Shown here one piece after another: positions 32,011 to 62,533 of a stretch of 64,000 nt of DNA. The stretch is from NCBI RefSeq assembly GCF_029870285.1, contig NZ_JACSYA010000008.1, positions 62,001 to 126,000 on the forward strand, given 5' to 3'. The DNA is from Delftia sp. PS-11. Lineage in GTDB: Bacteria > Pseudomonadota > Gammaproteobacteria > Burkholderiales > Burkholderiaceae_C. The notes under the pieces are model-generated. The model saw only the letters and a list, made by a program, of their open reading frames with translations, did no database searches and had not been told where the DNA came from. The position numbers and the translations under genes are program-made. Numbering within the stretch: position 1 is the first letter of the stretch; each line of letters starts with the position of its first letter.

Positions 32011-32532
32011 ATGGAAATCACCGAACAATGCGTGGTCGCACTGACCTGGACCCTGAAGGACACCCTGGGCGAGGAGCTCGATGTGCTCGACGAGCCCGTG
32101 GAGTTTCTGGTCGGCGGCGATGACCTGCTCAAGCGCATCGAGGAAGCCCTGCAGGGCCACGGCATGGGCAAGACGCTCAATCTGCACCTGGAGCCCGAAG
32201 AGGCCTTTGGCGACTACGACGAAAGCCTGATCTTCCTGGAGCCGCGCGCCCTCTTTCCCGCCGAGCTGGAGGAAGGCATGAGCTTCGAGGCCAGCGCACT
32301 GCCCCAAGGATGCAGCGCCGTGCCGCCGGACCTGCTCTATACCGTGACCGAAATCTACCCCGAGCATGTGGTGCTCGATGGCAACCATCCGCTGGCTGGC
32401 ATCGCCCTGCGCCTGCAACTCAAGGTCGAAGGCGTGCGCGAGGCCACCGAAGAGGAGATCGGCCGGGGCTCGGCAGGCACGGGCTTTTTCCGCGTCCAGC
32501 CCATGGCGCCGGGCAGCGACACGCTGCACTGA
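32011..32532 (+). CDS. SlyD-like FKBP-type peptidyl-prolyl isomerase
   Basis: A 173-aa protein with the FKBP/SlyD fold. The short FKBP half begins VALTWTLKDTLGEELDVLDE, an IF insertion (chaperone flap) occupies the middle (PEEAFGDYDESLIF), and GNHPLAGIALRLQLKVEGV closes the fold. This corresponds to the SlyD signature DGNHPLAG. It lacks the His/Cys-rich metal-binding tail of E. coli SlyD and ends FRVQPMAPGSDTLH. It acts as a folding catalyst and chaperone in the cytosol. ATG at 32011; the open frame to 31951 has no support. Convergent with the first PepSY gene. Confidence 0.92.
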   Translation: MEITEQCVVALTWTLKDTLGEELDVLDEPVEFLVGGDDLLKRIEEALQGHGMGKTLNLHLEPEEAFGDYDESLIFLEPRALFPAELEEGMSFEASALPQGCSAVPPDLLYTVTEIYPEHVVLDGNHPLAGIALRLQLKVEGVREATEEEIGRGSAGTGFFRVQPMAPGSDTLH

Positions 32533-32544
32533 GCTGGCGCAGGC

Positions 32545-32928
32545 TCAATGCCGGGTGCGCACGCTCAGCACATTGCCGCTGTGCCCATCGACATAGAGCT
32601 TGACGGCCCGCCCATCGGACGCCAGGCCCTTGACCTTGTACAGGCCGTCATCCCACTCGATCTCGCGCAGATCGCGGTAGCCCAGGGCTTCGATGCGTTC
32701 GGAGATTTCACGGATACCCAGGCCGGGCCCCTGCAAGGCGCCGCGGACGGAAGCGGCCGTGGCTGCCACGGCCTGGGAGGCTTTTGCTGTCACAGAAGGC
32801 TCATCCGCGCTGGCGGCGGCAGCCTGCACCTGGGCCACCAGGCCAGCGCCAGCAATCAGGGCAATGCCCACGCCCGTCAGACCGTGGCGGGCGATGCGGG
32901 AAATCAGCGAGGGGGTGGAAGACGACAT
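32545..32928 (-). CDS. Exported PepSY-domain protein (divergent copy)
   Basis: A 127-aa protein. A signal peptide (basic start, hydrophobic GLTGVGIALIAGAGLVAQVQA, cleavage after an Ala) is followed by a small PepSY domain: ISERIEALGYRDLREIEWDD, then YKVKGLASDGRAVKLYVDG and a final SGNVLSVRTR strand. PepSY modules are small periplasmic domains, often next to two-component systems or attached to peptidases. ATG at 32928 follows AAGGAG. It faces a second PepSY gene heading the RR/HK operon, and the two share a symmetric box region, so it is probably in that system's regulon. Confidence 0.87.
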   Translation of the reverse strand: MSSSTPSLISRIARHGLTGVGIALIAGAGLVAQVQAAAASADEPSVTAKASQAVAATAASVRGALQGPGLGIREISERIEALGYRDLREIEWDDGLYKVKGLASDGRAVKLYVDGHSGNVLSVRTRH

Positions 32929-32998
32929 GTGTTGCTCCTTGGCGATGTGAATGGATGTGGGTCCGCGCGGCGGCGGTTCCCGGCGATGGCGTGCGGCC

Positions 32999-33071
32999 AT
33001 TGTTCGCCGCCGGGCATGAACGCAGGCTGAAGCCTTTGTTCATGTCCGGTTCATCCATGCCACGCTATAAG
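32999..33071. promoter_or_regulatory. Back-to-back PhoP-like direct-repeat boxes between the PepSY genes
   Basis: Plus strand: TGTTCA (33037-33042), five bases, GGTTCA (33048-33053), then exactly 12 bases to the -10-like TATAAG (33066-33071). Minus strand: GCTTCA (33033-33028), five bases, CGTTCA (33022-33017), then exactly 12 bases to AACAAT (33004-32999). Hexamer, 5-bp spacer, hexamer with 12 bp to -10 is the architecture of PhoP-type promoters. The inner ends of the boxes are 3 bp apart. The adjacent OmpR/PhoP-type regulator is the natural ligand; that step is inference. Confidence 0.65.
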
Positions 33072-33108
33072 CTTGGCTGACATCGAACCGGCCATCCGCA
33101 GCCCTGCC

Positions 33109-33459
33109 ATGCACACCACACCTGCCGCCATCAACCACGCACACCGTCTCCCGATGCGGGCGACCGCACTGGCACTGACGGCGGCCGCCCTGCTGGCCTG
33201 GGCGCCCCCCGGCAAGGCCGGCGGCGACGACCACGAACTGGCGCGCCAGGCCCTGCAGCAAGGTCAGGTACTCCCCCTGCGCACTGTGCTGGACCGCGTC
33301 GAGCGCGAGTTCCAGGGCCAGGTAATCAAGGTCGAGTTCGACCATGACGATGGCCGCTTTCTGTACGAAATCCGGCTGCTGCAATCGGGTGGCCGCGTGG
33401 CCAAACTCAAAATCGATGCGCGCGATGGCAAGGTGCTGAGCTTCAAGCGCAAGGACTAG
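33109..33459 (+). CDS. Exported PepSY-domain protein heading the two-component operon
   Basis: A 116-aa protein with an N-terminal hydrophobic stretch (MRATALALTAAALLAWAPPGKA, given here only as a span: MRATALALTAAALLAW at residues 16-31) and a signal-peptidase-like AGG junction. A PepSY-type domain follows: VLPLRTVLDRVEREFQGQVI, the strand pair FLYEIRLLQSGGRVAKLKID, and DGKVLSFKR. Start ATG at 33109; an internal ATG at 33154 would give a tighter signal peptide. It ends 5 bp before the response regulator start. A periplasmic input or modulator for the kinase is plausible but unproven. Confidence 0.85.
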   Translation: MHTTPAAINHAHRLPMRATALALTAAALLAWAPPGKAGGDDHELARQALQQGQVLPLRTVLDRVEREFQGQVIKVEFDHDDGRFLYEIRLLQSGGRVAKLKIDARDGKVLSFKRKD

Positions 33460-33464
33460 CACGC

Positions 33465-34139
33465 ATGAGAATCCTGGTGATCGAGGACGAACCCACGCTC
33501 TGCGCCCAGCTCGTGCAGGCGCTGCGCCAGGCCGGCCATACGGTGGAGACGGCCAGTGATGGGGCCACCGCCCAGTACCTGGGCGAAGTCGAGGATTTCG
33601 ATGCCGCCGTGCTGGACCTGGGTCTTCCCGTGCGCGACGGACTGACCGTGCTACGCGCATGGCGCGGACAGGGGCGCAGCATGCCTGTGATGATCCTCAC
33701 GGCCCGCGGCGCCTGGCATGAAAAGGTGGCGGGCATGGATGCCGGCGCGGACGACTATCTGTCCAAGCCATTTCACATGGAGGAACTGCTGGCGCGCCTG
33801 CGCGCGCTGCTGCGCCGCCTGGGCCCGCACGCCAGCGCCCAGTGGCAATGCGGCCCCATCGTGCTCGACTCCAGCCAGGCCCGCGTGAGCGTGGCCGGGC
33901 AGGCGCTGAGCCTGACCAGCCATGAGTTTAAGGTGCTGGCCCTGCTGATGCAGCGCATGGGCACGGTGATCTCGCGCACCGAGCTGTCCGAGCATATTTA
34001 CCCGCAGGACAGCGACCGCGACTCCAACACCATCGAAGTCTTCGTGGGGCGCCTGCGCAAGAAGCTGCCCCCCGGCAGCATAGAGACGGTACGCGGCCTG
34101 GGCTACCGGCTGGTGGACACCCGCCAGACCTGCGCATGA
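33465..34139 (+). CDS. OmpR/PhoP-family response regulator
   Basis: A 224-aa regulator. The receiver domain has acidic pocket EDE at residues 7-9, phospho-acceptor Asp51 in VLDLGLPVRDG, Thr in ILTARG and Lys in LSKPF. The C-terminal winged helix (LTSHEFKVLALLMQRMG, then DSNTIEVFVGRLRKKLP and the final GLGYRLV) recognises direct-repeat boxes in this family. The start has AAGGA within the PepSY 3' end. It overlaps the kinase start by 4 bp. The direct-repeat boxes upstream of its operon suggest autoregulation. Confidence 0.95.
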   Translation: MRILVIEDEPTLCAQLVQALRQAGHTVETASDGATAQYLGEVEDFDAAVLDLGLPVRDGLTVLRAWRGQGRSMPVMILTARGAWHEKVAGMDAGADDYLSKPFHMEELLARLRALLRRLGPHASAQWQCGPIVLDSSQARVSVAGQALSLTSHEFKVLALLMQRMGTVISRTELSEHIYPQDSDRDSNTIEVFVGRLRKKLPPGSIETVRGLGYRLVDTRQTCA

Positions 34140-35563
34140 GCGCGCTGCCGCCAGGACAGCGCAGGCGCCTGGGCGACTCCCTGCACCTGCGCCTGCTGGC
34201 CGGCACGCTGGCCTGGGTGCTGATGGCCGTGCTGCTGGCAGGCTGGGGGCTGCGCGAATTGTTCAGGGAGCATATCGAGCAGCAGCTGCAGGCCCAGCTG
34301 CTGCTGCAGCTCGACCAGCTCAGCGCGGCCGCCAACAGCCTGCCGGGCGGTGATATCGAGGTCACCAGCGCCTTCGGCGACCCGCGCCTGGCCCAGCCGC
34401 TGTCGGGCCTGTACTGGCAGATCGACCGGCTGGCGGCCCCTGCGGGCAGGCCCGCAGCAGCAGGCGTGCTGCGTTCACGCTCGCTCTGGGACCAGACCCT
34501 GGACTGGGCGCAGTTCCGGCGCACACCATCCCTGCTGACGGATGCACAGACCGCCACGGTCGCGGGCCTGCTGCCCGACGCGCAGGGCCACACCCTGGCC
34601 GCAGTCTCCCGCCCGCTGCAACTGCCGGAGGCCGATGCGCCGCCGCTGCGCCTGATCGTGGCGGCCGACGGCGCCCTGCTGTCCGAGCCCATACAGCGCT
34701 TCACCACCATGCTGGTCGCAGCGCTGGGGGCGCTGGCGGCCGGGCTGGCGCTGGCCGTTCTGCTGCAGTTGCGGCTGGCGCTGCAGCCGCTGCAGCTGCT
34801 GCGCAAGGGATTGTCCGATGTACGCTCGGGTGCGACGCCACGCCTGCAGGGGCGCTTTCCCAGCGAGTTGCAGCCCCTGGTGCAGGAATTCAACCATGTG
34901 CTGGGCGTCAACGCCGACATGGTGCAGCGCGCGCGCACCCAGGCCGGCAACCTGGCACATGCCGTCAATACGCCGCTGACCATCCTGGGCCATGCCGCCG
35001 CGCAGGCAGAAGGACCGCTGGCCGAACTGGTGCGCGAGCAGGTGGCCAGCGCCAGCCGCCAGGTCGAGCACCACCTGGCCCGCGCGCGCGCCGCTGCACG
35101 CCAGGCCACCGGCCTGCGCACGCCTGTGCAGCCGCCGCTGGCATCGCTGATACGCACCATGGCCCGGCTGCATGCACAGCGCGCCATCCGCTTCACGCTG
35201 GAGGGCGAGTCCGCAGATTGGGACTTCCTGGGCGAAGCCGAGGACCTCATGGAGATGCTGGGCAACCTGCTGGACAACGCCGGCAAGTGGGCCGCACAGA
35301 CCGTGCGGCTCGATGTGCGGGGCCAGAACGGGCAACTGCTGCTGACCGTGGAAGACGACGGTCCGGGCATTGCGCAGGACGCGCAGGAGCGCATCTTCAG
35401 CCGGGGCGAGCGTCTGGATGAACGGCGCCCCGGCGCAGGACTGGGACTGGACATCGTGCGGGAGCTGGTGCAGGCCTATGGCGGCAGCATCGAGGCCGGC
35501 CGCAGCGCGCTGGGCGGACTGCGCATGCAGCTGCGCCTGCCAGGGGCAACGCGGCAGCAGTGA
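34136..35563 (+). CDS. Membrane sensor histidine kinase (PhoQ-like)
   Basis: A 475-aa kinase. Membrane helix 1 is near residues 19-38, a periplasmic sensor domain runs to about 190, and helix 2 is near 191-212 with a HAMP-like linker. The dimerisation helix carries His275 in NLAHAVNTPLTILGH, the variant H-box of PhoQ-type kinases. The catalytic domain has MEMLGNLLDNAGKWA (N box), VEDDGPGI (G1) and RRPGAGLGLDIVRELV (G2). The start overlaps the regulator stop (ATGA), so they are translationally coupled. The signal is unknown; an acidic cation-binding patch like PhoQ's is not obvious. Confidence 0.94.
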   Translation: MSALPPGQRRRLGDSLHLRLLAGTLAWVLMAVLLAGWGLRELFREHIEQQLQAQLLLQLDQLSAAANSLPGGDIEVTSAFGDPRLAQPLSGLYWQIDRLAAPAGRPAAAGVLRSRSLWDQTLDWAQFRRTPSLLTDAQTATVAGLLPDAQGHTLAAVSRPLQLPEADAPPLRLIVAADGALLSEPIQRFTTMLVAALGALAAGLALAVLLQLRLALQPLQLLRKGLSDVRSGATPRLQGRFPSELQPLVQEFNHVLGVNADMVQRARTQAGNLAHAVNTPLTILGHAAAQAEGPLAELVREQVASASRQVEHHLARARAAARQATGLRTPVQPPLASLIRTMARLHAQRAIRFTLEGESADWDFLGEAEDLMEMLGNLLDNAGKWAAQTVRLDVRGQNGQLLLTVEDDGPGIAQDAQERIFSRGERLDERRPGAGLGLDIVRELVQAYGGSIEAGRSALGGLRMQLRLPGATRQQ

Positions 35564-61882: not shown

Positions 61883-62533
61883 TCAGGCCGTGGCCTTGGG
61901 CGAGCGGCCCGCGCGCCAGGCGCCAAACAGCGCGATCAGGCCCGGCCCCAGGATCAGGCCCCAGATGATTTTTTCAAGGTTCTCGCGCACCCAGGGCATA
62001 TTGCCGAAGAAGTAGCCCGCCGCGCTGATGCCGAACACCCACACCAGGGCTCCGCCCACATTGAAGGCGGTGAATTTGCTGCGGCTCATGGCCGCCACGC
62101 CAGCAACGAAAGGAGCAAAAGTACGGATGAAGGGCATGAACCGCGCCAACACGATGGTGATGCCGCCGTAGCGCTCGTAGAACGCATGGGCCTGGTCGAA
62201 GGCACGGCGGTTGAACCAGCGCGAGTCCTCCCACTGGAAGACCTTGGGCCCGATGAAGCGGCCGATGGAATAGTTGCACTGGTCACCGAGTACGGCCGCC
62301 ACGAACAGGACGCCACCGGCGATGGAATAGTCCATGAGGCCCGCGCCGCACAGTGCGCCCACAATGAACAGCAGCGAATCGCCCGGCAGGAAAGGCATGA
62401 CGACCACGCCCGTTTCCACGAAAACGATGAGAAACAGCAGCGCGTACACCCAGGGCCCGTAGGCCACCACGAAAGCCTCCAGGTGTTTGTCCACATGCAG
62501 GATGAAGTCGATCAGGAACTGAATGATTTCCAA
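61883..62533 (-). CDS. dedA: DedA-family membrane protein
   Basis: A 216-aa inner-membrane protein of the DedA/SNARE-associated family, linked to undecaprenyl-phosphate or phospholipid flipping and envelope integrity. Signatures are FVETGVVVMPFLPGDSLLFI, GDQCNYSIGRFIGPKVF, the long FYERYGGITIVLARFMPFIR, and FAPFVAGVAAMSRSKFTAFN. The TTG at 62533 is preferred because GGAGG lies at the right distance and the length matches E. coli DedA (219). An ATG at 62638 would add an unusual Ala/Gly-rich lead. Convergent with copy 1 and divergent from copy 2 of the glycine-zipper lipoproteins. Confidence 0.9.
   Translation of the reverse strand: MEIIQFLIDFILHVDKHLEAFVVAYGPWVYALLFLIVFVETGVVVMPFLPGDSLLFIVGALCGAGLMDYSIAGGVLFVAAVLGDQCNYSIGRFIGPKVFQWEDSRWFNRRAFDQAHAFYERYGGITIVLARFMPFIRTFAPFVAGVAAMSRSKFTAFNVGGALVWVFGISAAGYFFGNMPWVRENLEKIIWGLILGPGLIALFGAWRAGRSPKATA

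Follow-up and report, generated by a model that had tools for sequence, protein, structure and literature searches.

In the 64,000-nucleotide stretch of Delftia sp. PS-11 DNA analysed here (the window; NZ_JACSYA010000008.1, positions 62,001 to 126,000), a short region read at 32999-33071 lies between two divergent genes that encode PepSY-domain proteins, one of them heading an operon with a two-component system, and the repeats within it raise the question of whether a single regulator could act on both sides. We consider it probable that a 37-bp element in this region is a two-sided operator of the local FeuP-like regulator, which would activate both sides with PepSY feedback; the binding, the two-way activation, the start sites and the feedback are what we infer.

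Layout of the intergenic region

On the plus strand, TGTTCA (33037-33042) and GGTTCA (33048-33053) are read 5 bp apart and form the operon-side direct repeat (33037-33053), and on the minus strand GCTTCA (33033-33028) and CGTTCA (33022-33017), likewise 5 bp apart, form the divergent-side repeat (33017-33033); both repeats are conserved in relatives. The inner hexamers are separated by 3 bp, and 12 bp beyond each repeat stands a -10-like hexamer, TATAAG (33066-33071, plus strand) on the operon side and AACAAT (32999-33004, minus strand, read 33004-32999) on the divergent side, with 61 bp between the two. The 5-bp spacers, the 3-bp gap and the 12 bp to both hexamers had all been given in an original prediction made from this DNA alone, and reading of the sequence found each of them exact. 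A distance of 12 bp from box to -10 is also that of PhoP promoters. Reduced to tetramers, the arrangement becomes TGAA-N7-TGAA-N7-TTCA-N7-TTCA (33017-33053, 37 bp, no strand assigned), a putative operator on the evidence of sequence, conservation and shuffles, whose four boxes share a single 11-bp register about a two-fold axis, two facing each way. This pattern matched once in the window and never in 100 dinucleotide-preserving shuffles, and its operon-side half, TTCA-N7-TTCA, occupies 33039-33053 upstream of the operon. A generic sigma-70 scan of 32500-33600 found no promoter.

The plus-strand operon begins, ahead of the regulator, with a small PepSY protein of 116 aa (33109-33459, predicted start codon; PF03413, E=6.1e-10), judged by eye to be exported from its signal peptide, with one solved-structure match, a weak one to a PepSY/peptidase M4 propeptide entry. 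It is followed by an OmpR-type response regulator (33465-34139, plus strand), about 0.4 kb from the 37-bp element, which domain and family searches and alignment mark as FeuP-like and which carries the recognition helix DSNTIEVFVGRLRKKL, and by a histidine kinase (34136-35563, plus strand) identified by domain search, whose GLYWQ and RSRSLWD motifs correspond to the SK1 class of PMC2909971. The same kinase has the sequence REHIE, an RExxE motif, just past its first membrane helix (window 34265-34279). On the minus strand, the divergent gene encodes a PepSY_2 protein of 127 aa (32545-32928, predicted start codon; PF13670, E=5.2e-8).

The system had been proposed to be PhoP/PhoQ-like with PhoP-class promoter grammar, an identity that was not upheld: the regulator scored 197.7 bits against the PhoP equivalog cut-off of 336 and the kinase 157.8 against 497 for PhoQ, and the boxes end in GTTCA or CTTCA, not (T/G)GTTTA, on which grounds PhoP/PhoQ proper was rejected. 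What stood of that proposal is the hexamer-N5-hexamer layout, with TTCA-N7-TTCA as the actual box. The window boxes likewise do not fit the BqsRS operator, TTAAG-N6-TTAAG, and the Bqs-type RExxE sensor motif (named ExxE in PMC12666569), present in the window kinase, occurs in 4 of 108 related kinases and is not conserved among them. Among these 108, the 51 kinases from four-box loci comprise 50 with both SK1 motifs and one with RSRSLWD only, and the other 57 divide into 16 with both, 12 with the first only and 29 with neither. By sequence, the system is best read as a module of the FeuNPQ/DbfQRS/SK1-Orf1 type, not PhoPQ proper.

Conservation of the element

A search for the regulator within the genus (E<=1e-75) gave matches in 29 of 53 genomes, at 30 loci, which together with a further 80 loci (the best 80 of at least 587 confirmed candidates, some duplicating genus loci) make up the 110 regulator loci considered, that is, 117 minus 7 own-genome paralogues. 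With orientation fixed, 28 of the 30 genus loci have the four-box element in their upstream region; the exceptions are L034, cut by a contig end, and L037, which has one pair only. Across all 110, which include those best 80 and are related loci from overlapping collections whose counts are not independent events, 52 have the element, selected by exact pattern, within 900 bp and 58 do not (51 with two boxes, 7 with neither), most of the latter belonging to Rhizobiales and other groups that show the operon-side pair only, and the four-box form as a universal rule is contradicted by these 58. In all 52 the centre gap is 7 bp, though 0-20 bp was allowed, and a gap fixed in this way indicates one 37-bp element, not two loosely abutting sites. 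The repeats described in the original prediction are thus real, whereas its division of them into two separate back-to-back operators did not hold.

Removal of copies at least 80% identical over 117 bp left 40 of the 52 sites, a non-redundant set in which the boxes are fixed by pattern selection and the flanks are unselected. At outward positions 13-18, these 40 sites show a -10 on both sides, with T30 A37 T25 A39 A32 on the operon side and A23 A38 C21/G11 A34 A32 T37 on the divergent side. When -10 offsets were scored by an A at position 2 with a T at position 1 or 6, offset 12 was obtained in 36 of 40 sites on the operon side (the next, 28 sites at offset 14, overlaps the same TATAA). On the divergent side it was obtained in 37 of 40, where the next-best offset reached 7 sites, and among non-redundant two-box loci in 34 of 38, where the next best reached 13. 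In relatives, the bases between the boxes vary and the box spacing is constant. Farther out on the divergent side, C is present in 32 and A in 27 of the 40 sites at positions 24-25, which correspond to 32992-32993 (minus strand) in the window, and transcription of the divergent gene could start at this CA. Conservation of the spacings in relatives was the test that the original prediction had set itself, and the centre gap, the two 12-bp offsets and the 28 genus loci agree with it.

Genome-wide, the exact element was counted from the table at 50 places in 33 of the 53 genus genomes, with 20 genomes lacking it and the backwards-read pattern absent from all 53. With gaps of 0-30 bp allowed, the genus scan yielded three places with gap 4 beside the 50 with gap 7, 53 in total. 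The gap-4 places (G045:C110:171622-171655, G049:C1:4420870-4420903 and G050:C1:4244324-4244357) are near-perfect, terminator-like hairpins. A scan of 300 genomes from the order, in which gaps of 0-20 bp were allowed, found 25 distinct places (21 with gap 7) in 14 genomes, and the backwards control gave matches in one genome; one of the 21, in G265, looks like what we take to be a neisserial uptake-sequence pair. The element is rare across the order and, where present, its gap is fixed. One genus of the order (G251, G306 and G331; L151-L159) has two to five four-box elements per genome, several adjoining the gene for a short hydrophobic protein (about 80-110 aa) beginning MTTQKPSFLETLS, and the two such proteins examined, at L153 and L154, had no Pfam match. 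Within the Delftia sp. PS-11 genome itself, GTTCA-N6-GTTCA occurs 5 times, compared with once for the pattern read backwards, and the four sites other than that of the window combine no convincing promoter with a gene start. Two patterns that included the -10 gave no match, but these are of little informative value, both requiring a final T that is absent from the window's operon site. The genome shows little further regulon.

Genes beside the element

In the genus, tblastn matched the window PepSY_2 protein on the divergent side of 25 of the 28 four-box regulator loci, and the remaining three have a ferric reductase by Pfam (L032, L035) or a gene resembling one by eye (L033); the Pfam searches covered 30 selected proteins near four-box sites. 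Outside the genus, the divergent position holds PepSY_2 at L039, L047, L055 and L069 and, in the order scan, at L149 and L150, but also a ferric reductase (L041), cytochrome b561 (L045, L046) or DUF1924 (L048, L054, and L160 in the order scan), which we take to be the SHP haem-protein family. At L053, a separate four-box element lies beside a DUF1924 gene about 1.1 kb upstream of the regulator, which has an operon-side pair in addition, and at L072 the divergent gene, of ambiguous orientation, perhaps encodes an EF-hand protein. L045 contains three four-box elements within a 6.6-kb locus, at 82, 805 and 2598, the second with a YceI protein gene on one side and the third with a cytochrome b561 gene on one side. 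The predicted divergent PepSY partner is therefore present in the window and fails as a general rule, since other lineages carry redox genes in its place; this replacement points to the divergent gene as an output and makes a feedback role for both PepSY proteins less likely. By a crude orientation call, the neighbouring gene is divergent in 44 of the 52 four-box loci, co-directional in 5 and ambiguous in 3, and four of the five co-directional calls (L026, L029, L030, L031) still have a divergent PepSY_2 tblastn match; the same call for two-box loci gives 18 divergent, 17 co-directional and 15 ambiguous, with one too short.

Four-box elements also stand at 22 further places in the genus (L123-L144), with an eptA-like gene on one side in 15, called by EptA_B_N and Sulfatase domains in the two examined and by N-terminus similarity in the others. 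An OmpR-type regulator lies opposite the eptA-like gene in 14 of these 15 and is absent at L128. On the eptA side (L123-L143), the -10 is 11 bp from the box, not 12, in 15 of 15. There, the likely start codon often follows about 8-10 bases past the -10, as in a leaderless transcript. Elsewhere in this group the element adjoins a PepSY_2 gene (L127, L130, L134, L135), L131 repeats the arrangement of the window, and a DUF2271 gene is found at L141; the last of the 22 is L144.

The candidate regulator

The window regulator is 60-62% identical to those of Rhizobiales loci, and the helix DSNTIEVF is common to both; in the helix alignment, 11 related loci have DSNTIEVF and six own-genome paralogues differ. 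Five eptA-linked regulators, 38-43% identical to the window regulator, carry the helix DSNTLEVFISRLRRKL. In a tally of 144 related and partly duplicated loci (2 of 146 being too short), TTCA-N7-TTCA was found 290-620 bp upstream in 104 of 112 loci with DSNT[ILV]EVF and upstream in 6 of 32 with other helices, and reversed tetramers were found upstream in none of the 144; given the relatedness and duplication, the Fisher value for this tally is no true probability. Among 29 loci of the wider class, 11 have the pair within 650 bp, including three of the four DSNT loci (one as the four-box form), the fourth, L178, being without it. The helix DSN[TV][ILV]EV was found in none of 24 other own-genome regulator genes examined (55 matches listed, many receiver-only). 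Because the box tracks the helix and none of those 24 genes carries it, the local regulator appears the best candidate for binding the element.

Proposed mechanism and related systems

We propose that each TTCA-N7-TTCA pair would be occupied by one phosphorylated regulator dimer in head-to-tail arrangement, which would substitute for a -35 and bring RNA polymerase to the -10 found 12 bp farther out. The rightward output would be the pepSY-regulator-kinase operon, amounting to positive autoregulation, and the leftward output the second PepSY gene; such two-way activation would be consistent with where the parts lie. If DbfQ and FeuN are a guide, the operon PepSY most likely modulates the kinase negatively: it would bind and restrain the periplasmic domain of the kinase, and the resulting negative feedback would come with a delay. 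The divergent PepSY may be a paralogue directed at that sensor too, or one of the outputs of the pathway.

Several described systems resemble this module in part. FeuN-FeuP-FeuQ of Sinorhizobium meliloti also unites a small exported protein, an OmpR-type regulator and a kinase in one operon, with TTCA-N7-TTCA as a candidate FeuP site that lies upstream of feuN too (PMC3616915) and with periplasmic FeuN binding and restraining FeuQ (PMC12486126). Ensifer/Sinorhizobium loci L075 and L088, compared without a FeuP-labelled sequence, are about 60% identical in the regulator and share the box; unlike the window, the Rhizobiales loci examined show the operon-side pair only, and four rhizobial small proteins examined have no Pfam PepSY match. 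It is position that makes the operon PepSY a putative FeuN counterpart. The protein in the FeuN position is a clear PepSY at L061 and L117, a weak one at L101 and L097, and without Pfam match in rhizobia, the loci compared also including L075, L088, L078 and L100. FeuN may, on sequence, be a worn-down PepSY protein. In DbfQ-DbfR-DbfS of Vibrio cholerae, likened here by description and not by sequence, a periplasmic PepSY protein is again first in a positively autoregulated operon, and binding of DbfQ to the DbfS sensor (dissociation constant 30 nM) shifts the sensor toward phosphatase (PMC12714742); the available extract of that report describes one PepSY gene, no divergent partner and no DNA site there, and it mentions two DbfQ-like PepSY proteins in P. 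aeruginosa and one Burkholderia in which PepSY and two-component genes lie on opposite strands. The SK1 kinases of SHP operons are characterized by variations of SGVYWQ and RSRSLWD and are always associated with Orf1, and in Rhodospirillum a promoter region bordered left and right by homologous orf1 genes was interpreted in 2010 as possibly divergent (PMC2909971), the excerpted text giving no operator. The window shares the kinase motifs and the adjacent small periplasmic protein, and Orf1 would then be a PepSY protein, but the divergent gene of the window is a PepSY_2 gene without haem genes beside it.

Two further systems resemble the module in layout. In Salmonella and E. coli, PhoP boxes consist of (T/G)GTTTA repeated after 5 bp, in the same hexamer-N5-hexamer form, bound head to tail and overlapping the -35 at some promoters, and the excerpted text of PMC3335776 describes no mirror-image four-box element. 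BqsRS of Pseudomonas aeruginosa has two PepSY proteins beside the two-component system (PMC12714742) and shares the 11-bp period, its sites being TTAAG-N6-TTAAG with some four-pentamer promoters, yet the box differs and the repeats are, in the sections available, spaced alike and not mirror-imaged (PMC4682146).

Alternative explanations

The regulator might drive only the operon side, the leftward boxes being an auxiliary strengthening site and the divergent gene being regulated separately; many relatives do keep the operon-side pair only (50 scorable two-box loci), and extra pentamers at the P. aeruginosa BqsR promoter raise output without being essential, according to PMC4682146. This is unlikely, as in 37 of the 40 sites a separate -10 stands 12 bp from the box on the divergent side, the conserved CA follows farther out, and 44 of the 52 loci received an outward gene call. 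Repression of one gene or of both by the element, or mutual exclusion of the two promoters, we hold distinctly unlikely: there may not be room for two polymerases at once on -10s 61 bp apart, but the repeats lie upstream of each -10, in the position of an activator, and the dbfQRS promoter is reported to be positively autoregulated (PMC12714742).

The main binder could also be another regulator of the same helix class, given that the eptA-linked regulators of the genus have DSNTLEVF and adjoin the same element; with 0 of the 24 other own-genome regulator genes examined bearing the helix and the element adjoining the local regulator's own operon, this is very improbable. A hairpin, a terminator or a chance arrangement can practically be set aside. 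An inverted repeat does overlap the element, an imperfect one whose 19-nt arms are 84% complementary, but its axis differs from that of the boxes, it lies upstream of both genes, and the inter-box bases vary in relatives while the spacing stays constant; hairpin and terminator were rejected on these points and on the controls, and the absence of any match in the 100 shuffles and in the 53 backwards controls speaks against chance. The two-sided operator of the local regulator remains the reading we prefer.

Implications

Searches of an open-licence library brought up no paper recognised as describing the four-box element, and we regard as new the two-sided, phase-locked operator, its lineage-variable divergent gene and its recurrence elsewhere, for example beside eptA-like genes. 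More tentatively, the element could be a portable, phase-locked two-way switch, on which a cooperative tetramer of back-to-back dimers would occupy one DNA face, 11 bp apart throughout, and couple or mutually exclude two polymerases at -10s 61 bp apart; its divergent side would accept varied envelope and redox genes, and paralogues with the DSNT helix would reuse the layout, as at eptA. The fixed centre gap raises a testable question that single-site activators do not, namely whether one regulator assembly locks two divergent promoters. FeuNPQ, DbfQRS and the SK1/Orf1 systems of SHP operons, which have been named separately, would be united by one DNA site and one recognition helix, and their sharing of both would make targets predictable. 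The arrangement further suggests that the sensor which PepSY proteins are thought to restrain often has these proteins among its direct outputs, and the element points to ferric reductase, cytochrome b561, DUF1924 and EptA-like proteins as partners.
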